Below are positions 40,233 through 41,297 of a stretch of 64,000 nt of DNA, piece after piece; position 1 is the first letter of the stretch, and each line of letters opens with the position of its first letter. The stretch is from Rhizobiales bacterium 62-17 (GTDB lineage: Bacteria > Pseudomonadota > Alphaproteobacteria > Rhizobiales > Beijerinckiaceae). The translations under genes and the position numbers were made by a program. The DNA lies in assembly GCA_001898965.1 (NCBI GenBank), contig MKVW01000001.1, positions 928,317-992,316 of the forward strand, read 5' to 3'. The notes under the pieces are model-generated. The model was not told the origin of the DNA. It was given only the letters and a program-made list of their open reading frames with translations, and did no database searches.

Positions 40233-41297
40233 TTAGCGACGGGCCTTCTTGGCCAGTTTCTTCGCAGCCTTCTTGGCGGCCTTCTTCACCGCGCCTTTCT
40301 TGGCAGCTTTCTTTGCCTTGACCGGAGCAGCCTTGCCGCGCACCGCCAGCACCTTCTTGGTGCGGCTCGCCTTGGTCGGTTTCGCCCGTGCCGAAGACTT
40401 GGTTTTGGCGGACTTGGCTTTAGCCGATTTGGCCTTGGCTTTGGTCGCGCGCTTCTCGGGCCGGTTTTCCAGGATGAGGTGGCCGACGGCGGTGTTGGAG
40501 GCCGGCACCGTGTAGAAACGGTAGACTTCCTCGACGTTCTTGTTGAGCGCGCCGCGGGCGACGAGCCACATCACCATTTCGATGCCTTCGGCACCGGCTT
40601 CGCGCATATATTCGACGTGGCGCAGCGCGGTCAGTTTTTCCGGATGATCGGAGAAGTTGTCCATGAAGTTCTTGTCGAACTTGCTGTTGATCAGGCCGGC
40701 GCGCGGGCCGGAAATCTGATGCGACATGCCGCCGGTGCCGAACACCACGACCTTGAGATCCTCGGGGAAGGATTCCACGGCCTTGCGGATCGCTTCGCCA
40801 AGGTGGAAGCAGCGATTGCCTGTCGGCGGCGGGAACAGCACGACGTTCACCGCCAGCGGAATGATCTTGCACGGCCATTCTTCCGGCTGGCCGAACATCA
40901 GGCTCAGCGGCACGGTCAGGCCGTGGTCGACGTCCATCTTGTTGACGACGGTCAGGTCGAATTCATCGAGGATGACCGATTGGGCGATATGGGCGGCGAG
41001 TTCCGGATGGCCCTTGACGACAGGCACCGGCCGCGGACCCCAGCCTTCATCGGCGGGAATGAATTCCTCGGCGCAGCCGAGCGCGAAGGTCGGTACCACG
41101 TCGACCGAGAATGCCGTCGCATGGTCGTTGAACACGACGATGCAGACATCCGGCTTGACCTCTTCGATCCAGCGCTTCGAGCGCTCGTAGCCGGAGAAGA
41201 CACGCTTCCAATACGTTTCCTCGGTTTTGCCGAGATCGAGAGCCGCGCCAATGGCCGGCACATGCGAGGTGCAGACGCCTGCTACAATCTTAGCCAT
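40233..41297 (-). CDS. ligB: LigB-type extradiol dioxygenase with histone-H1-like tail
   Basis: 354 residues. The class III extradiol dioxygenase domain covers about 1-280, with iron ligands at the expected spacing: H12 (TSHVP), H59 (NDHA), E240 (EGIEM) and the catalytic H193 (MSHQI). It would open protocatechuate or a related catechol at the 4,5 bond together with LigA. Residues 281-354 are an extra tail of about 26 Lys, 22 Ala and 6 Arg in 74 residues, with repeated KAK and AKKA units, like the C-terminus of histone H1. The usual LigB lacks this tail. The gene overlaps ligA by eight bases. Confidence 0.9.

Follow-up and report, generated by a model that had tools for sequence, protein, structure and literature searches.

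A selectively kept histone-H1-like tail on a predicted protocatechuate 4,5-dioxygenase beta subunit, and a tail of the same kind on a PcaD-type enol-lactonase

Background

In bacteria, histone-H1-like tails have been described for proteins that act on DNA or on storage granules. Three such proteins, AlgP, PhaF and HupB, bear on the locus considered here. The published account of AlgP reports that KPAA peptides bind DNA, that the protein is found on polyphosphate granules, and that its tail is needed for granule spacing (PMC9239181). PhaF is described as having a disordered, DNA-binding tail (PMC3574117), and HupB is reported to depend strictly on its tail for associating with the nucleoid (PMC5676037).

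Both the device and the enzyme LigB are familiar; what appears to be new in the locus described below is the combination of the two, together with a nearly genus-wide tail on a second enzyme, PcaD. Within the open-licence literature, a scope that leaves most subscription journals outside, no description was found of LigB or PcaD with a tail of this kind.

Results

The ligB gene occupies 40233..41297 (minus strand) of the window, by which we mean the whole 64,000-nucleotide stretch of DNA that was analysed, and encodes 354 residues. Its product has a full-length domain above curated cut-offs, which places it in the LigB family: the Pfam LigB domain matches residues 8-271 with 269.2 bits (cut-off 26.3; profile positions 3-268 of 269), and NCBIfam PRK13366 is the top curated model (488 bits; cut-off 317). 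Across an alignment of 25 sequences H12, H59, E240 and H193 are all invariant; these we take to be the iron ligands and the catalytic histidine/base. The structure model made from a 25-sequence alignment has a mean pLDDT of 80.5, with the body folded well, and this predicted model matches the solved Sphingobium LigB with an rmsd of 1.1 (61% identity over 279 alignment columns). The original prediction had the catalytic domain complete by about residue 280, in agreement with the Pfam boundary, with the nearly invariant E277 that marks the end of the body in the alignment, and with 1b4u, the solved Sphingobium structure, which aligns with the window protein up to residue 283. Judged by its sequence, then, window LigB has nothing unusual for a protocatechuate 4,5-dioxygenase beta subunit, predicted to cleave the ring, except for a tail. 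Near ligAB lies a cupin gene (43873-44913, minus strand) that is gentisate-1,2-dioxygenase-like, with 219.7 bits where the equivalog cut-off is 442.1.

The body (residues 1-278; 40464..41297, minus strand) has a net charge of -11, and the tail that follows it (residues 279-354; 40236..40463, minus strand, with the stop codon at 40233-40235) brings the whole protein to +21. A recount of the final 74 residues gives 26 Lys, 22 Ala and 6 Arg, exactly the approximate figures of the original prediction, with no Asp and a single Glu. Lysine makes up 33.3% of the tail, alanine 28.2%, arginine 9%, proline 3.8% and glutamate 2.6%, and Asp, Phe, Trp and Tyr are absent. This is the make-up of AlgP/PhaF/HupB-type tails, in which Lys and Ala dominate and acidic and aromatic residues are almost lacking. 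The protein is not a linker histone H1, since LigB is its sole Pfam match and there is no globular winged-helix domain; nor was a PhaF-type phasin domain found, only LigB being matched in Pfam at E 0.01. Searched at E 10, the tails match no Pfam family. A valine--tRNA ligase profile matches residues 282-352 through its own Lys-rich terminus, at E 5e-5 but well short of the cut-off, which we take as a likeness of composition only.

Measured by net charge per residue, the final 74 residues of LigB are the most basic (0.42, the next being 0.23) among 358 open reading frames of at least 134 residues, called heuristically and with some spurious frames admitted, in 464 kb made up of 20 spaced 20-kb genome stretches and the window. 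Among a larger set of 674, which includes two stretches chosen for their KA-rich genes, only a PcaD-type protein (0.47) exceeds it. The structure prediction divides the tail into a linker (residues 279-326; 40320..40463, minus strand), predicted to be mostly disordered with a weak helix at 285-298, and a predicted terminal Lys/Ala helix (residues 327-353; 40239..40319, minus strand); block pLDDT is 31-55 over residues 281-330 and 65-82 from residue 331, values that for the tail approach a single-sequence guess because few aligned rows extend into it. The terminal 18 residues are amphipathic, with a moment of 0.71 that was matched by 4 of 500 shuffles.

A genus-wide search covered 51 genomes and gave a LigB match of some kind in 48; the C-termini of 30 close homologues were read, with those of G004 and G042, making 32. 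The nearest relative, G014, has a LigB body 99% identical to that of the window and a tail of 90 residues (net +35), and the next, G001, one of 63 residues (net +24). Counted from E277 the window tail has 78 residues and a net charge of +31, so that charge density is nearly the same in the three (0.397 in the window, 0.389 in G014 and 0.381 in G001). Six further congeners, G004 among them, have shorter basic tails. Whether the tail is conserved among relatives had been posed as a check on the original prediction: its charge is conserved, in the nearest relatives, and its sequence is not, since both sequence and length turn over rapidly. That prediction had also named absence from close relatives, or a frameshift or assembly error at about 40230-40460, as ways in which the tail might prove spurious. 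Neither was found: the in-frame tail recurs in two more genomes, which are separate assemblies, and the nearest differs mostly by synonymous changes.

A basic tail is absent from 23 of the 32 congeneric C-termini, and it is therefore not needed for catalysis. Taking all searches together, 112 distinct LigB rows remained of 120 once eight duplicates or truncated sequences had been removed; basic tails of 20 residues or more are present in 16, while the 96 that are not basic comprise eight with longer non-basic ends and 88 with at most 14 residues past the body. Outside the named loci of the genus, basic-tailed LigB is found at eight loci in metagenome-assembled genomes (MAGs) labelled Xanthobacteraceae, Hyphomicrobiales or Proteobacteria. 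A family-wide search (E 1e-120) found LigB in 29 of 298 genomes, and the six sequences from other genera end three to five residues past the body. In several Sphingobium or Sphingomonas records (five loci) LigB has a C-terminal extension of another kind, conserved but not basic (RPDNGEG...). As to labels, LigB-bearing MAG contigs L001, L017 and L012 are titled, for example, Rhizobium, Klebsiella and Devosia, and that of L001 seems wrong.

On a tree of LigB bodies (56 rows, hand-chosen from the 112) the tail requires four changes of state, yet a tree with all basic tails in one clade is not rejected (AU test, p 0.105). Origin by simple loss of a stop codon finds no echo in 40 untailed relatives, where no Lys/Ala repeat was seen by eye past the in-frame stop; some untailed relatives have Arg-rich in-frame sequence there. 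As for copying from another protein, a protein query with the tail returned the protein itself and two weak matches (E 0.34 and 1.1), in a search that is insensitive, as it missed the tail of PcaD.

Between the window and G014 the LigB tail differs at 35 codons, 22 synonymously and 13 nonsynonymously, and dN/dS is 0.20 in the tail and 0.012 in the body. Against G001 there are 15 synonymous and 24 nonsynonymous differences, with dN/dS of 0.34 and 0.10 respectively. Nonsynonymous divergence from G014 is about 38-fold higher in the tail (dN 0.121) than in the body (0.0032), on a tail alignment that must be imperfect because tail dS, at 0.60, exceeds that of the body, at 0.26. Neither in 2000 ungapped neutral simulations of the tail nor in 300 with indels and realignment did a single run match the observed ratio or retain the charge, the simulated tails carrying fewer synonymous changes (means of 6-9) than the 22 observed. 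The tail thus evolves faster than the body of LigB and is far less constrained, but it does not evolve neutrally. It is genuine, and it is selectively kept.

The alpha-subunit gene, ligA (41290..41718, minus strand), adjoins ligB and overlaps its start by eight bases; it encodes 142 residues from the likely ATG, although the listed open reading frame begins at an upstream GTG, at 41841. Its product is an alpha subunit by TIGR02792 (170.6 bits, cut-off 108.6). The basic stretch at the start of LigA, also part of the original prediction, is borne out when the protein is read from the likely ATG, where the first 15 residues (41674..41718, minus strand) have a net charge of +4. Within the genus, 26 rows could be read for both subunits, and a LigA N-terminus of net +3 or more, a threshold chosen after the N-termini had been seen, accompanies all eight tailed LigBs and none of the 18 untailed ones. 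G004 stands outside this count because its LigB runs into a contig end. The LigA of this genome begins with MKKKSRD, and a Lys-rich LigB end lies on another contig, with an identical overlap of 46 residues. In the eight MAG loci, all with basic LigB tails, none of the LigAs starts with a basic stretch. Counted over all branches the tree holds four independent pairs, and over starred branches only one. Co-variation of the basic ends of LigA and LigB within the genus is accordingly suggestive, but it loses significance when relatedness is taken into account.

A second enzyme in the same genome has a tail of the same kind. This PcaD-type 3-oxoadipate enol-lactonase (L156:9926-11128 on contig C4, plus strand) ends in 143 Lys/Ala-rich residues of net charge +47, on an alpha/beta-hydrolase body unrelated to that of LigB which belongs to its family by TIGR02427 (298.9 bits, cut-off 255.85). 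Its neighbours, named by reading, are molybdenum-hydroxylase-like and branched-chain ABC-transporter-like genes; as the gene lies outside any pca cluster, its role in the pathway is taken from the family model. At E 1e-60 PcaD was found in 36 of 51 genus genomes. Thirty congeneric sequences were read: a basic tail, complete and 75-177 residues long, is present in 27, another sequence is cut short by its contig end, and two are untailed, ending four residues past the body; the tail is thus nearly genus-wide, unlike that of LigB. Mean content over the 27 tails is 33% for Lys and 29% for Ala, close to the make-up of the LigB tail. Other genera of the family gave 48 matches, and among the best 26 of these, which were read, ten are tailed (101-186 residues, one off its contig) and 16 have one to five residues past the body, with no intermediate lengths; one genus has both tailed and untailed PcaD. 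On plasmids, 90 records matched PcaD.

The codon pattern for KKAAKK occurs at seven sites in the whole genome (none in the reversed control), and these fall in only four genes: LigB, PcaD, a TopA-like protein and a 41-residue H1-like miniprotein. The TopA-like protein, so named by reading, has a Lys/Ala-rich C-terminus and is encoded on contig C3, as is the histone-H1-like miniprotein (L157:9384-9509, plus strand; MAKAAKRKPAKKAAKKAVKK...), of which congener G001 has a near-copy. A wider KKxxKK pattern gave 32 sites, a count that is uninformative because the reversed control gave 24; the reading frames at its sites with loci (15 loci read, the rest being the same genes, and two sites having no locus) held no further KA-tailed enzyme. 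One of these sites lies in a protein that looks by eye like a D-Ala-D-Ala carboxypeptidase and has a Lys/Asp-rich end. Elsewhere in the genus, a DksA-like protein (by reading; congener G020, contig C290) has a long Lys-rich N-terminal stretch, a basic low-complexity addition of its own.

Discussion

That the tail binds polyanions, where it would place the enzyme and what benefit it might bring, we infer by analogy. The best explanation, held tentatively and with a little less than an even chance of being right, is that a polycationic tail tethers LigAB to nucleic acid or polyphosphate. The tail would be a selectively kept polycation, largely disordered and ending in a lysine-rich helix (disorder and helix both predicted), that acts as the histone-H1-like C-terminal domains of AlgP, PhaF and HupB do. 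Set on an acidic body and aided by the basic N-terminus of LigA, it would give LigAB a multivalent, sequence-independent affinity for polyanions, most probably DNA or RNA and next polyphosphate, and the ring-cleaving enzyme could so be kept close to the nucleoid or within a condensate of polyanions. Anchoring of this sort is the best-supported function because of the analogy with the three described proteins and because a second aromatic-pathway enzyme is tailed; as the PcaD-type enol-lactonase has the same device, placing aromatic-degradation enzymes may be a habit of the lineage.

The main rival, which we think rather unlikely, is that low-complexity sequence has drifted at a tolerant C-terminus, in-frame slippage of Lys and Ala codons producing a tail that has no binding partner and is selected only for solubility and harmlessness. 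Much about the tail would suit such an origin. Its DNA contains short imperfect tandem units of 12 and 15 bases; its presence, length and sequence differ among congeners; its dN is some 38 times that of the body; and in four tailed congeners the Lys-rich stretch closes with AAE, which is also the terminus of several untailed congeners, as if the stretch had been inserted ahead of a shared end. Drift is harder to reconcile with a dN/dS well below 1 and with a charge that is retained where every neutral simulation loses it. The basic start of LigA, moreover, tracks the tail within the genus, and slippage would have to account for KKAAKK being confined to four genes of the genome, LigB and PcaD among them.

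Other readings keep a function for the tail and change its target. Targeting of LigAB to granules of polyphosphate, or less likely PHA, rather than to nucleic acid strikes us as improbable; the similarly tailed AlgP, on its polyphosphate granules and with the reported role of its tail in their spacing, is its precedent (PMC9239181). The original prediction pointed to phaC, and the gene is indeed present in the window (23239-25254, minus strand, with a PhaC_N domain), but it lies about 15 kb from ligB among unrelated genes, and with no phasin domain in LigB the suggested localisation to PHA granules has no support. More doubtful again is an electrostatic aid to catalysis, whereby the polycation would concentrate anionic substrates or products (protocatechuate, muconate-type acids) or, in a variant, would screen the acidic body and steady the LigA-LigB complex. 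The net charge of -11 on the body opposite a basic tail is in keeping with this, and LigB and PcaD presumably both act on carboxylated compounds of aromatic pathways; against it, 96 of 112 LigB rows have no basic tail, and a long flexible tail would make a poor channel. Association with the membrane through a C-terminal amphipathic helix appears very improbable. The predicted helix at 327-353 and the high hydrophobic moment of the terminal 18 residues leave something of the earlier suggestion of anionic-membrane anchoring, but the same residues are not hydrophobic (mean -0.62) and large hydrophobic side chains are almost absent, so that the case for it is weak.

Of the readings weighed above we thus prefer the polyanion tether. 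It might be extended to the proposal that a Hyphomicrobiales-type family repeatedly tails soluble enzymes of aromatic degradation (LigB with LigA, and PcaD) and so brings them together at the nucleoid or in polyanion condensates, a scaffold-free co-localisation of a catabolic pathway; this we regard as doubtful. LigB is predicted to cleave the ring of a compound derived from lignin, and tailed aromatic-degradation enzymes may sit on DNA, RNA or polyphosphate. That two soluble aromatic-catabolism enzymes bear selectively kept tails raises the question of whether bacteria tail ordinary enzymes onto the nucleoid or polyanion condensates, for which tailed and untailed LigBs in close relatives, and tailed and untailed PcaDs in one family, provide natural controls.

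Among known systems, LigAB of Sphingobium sp. SYK-6 (PDB 1b4u, 1bou) shares family and fold with window LigB, but its LigB is a chain of 302 residues without a comparable basic tail, the alignment ending at residue 283 of the window protein. For the tail itself the likenesses lie elsewhere. The phasin PhaF of Pseudomonas putida also has a Lys-rich C-terminal domain, disordered until bound to DNA, but it has in addition its own N-terminal PHA-granule-binding domain, which LigB lacks (PMC3574117). HupB of mycobacteria likewise has a C-terminal tail, of PAKK/KAAK type, on a conserved domain, which is an HU-type DNA-binding domain where the body of LigB is a metabolic enzyme (PMC5676037). In AlgP of Pseudomonas aeruginosa the C-terminal domain is long, rich in Lys and Ala, and like histone H1 in composition, but the protein is a dedicated granule/nucleoid protein with KPAA repeats, whereas LigB is a dioxygenase with a proline-poor tail; the association of AlgP with both DNA and polyphosphate (PMC9239181) is what we propose, by analogy, for the tail of LigB.
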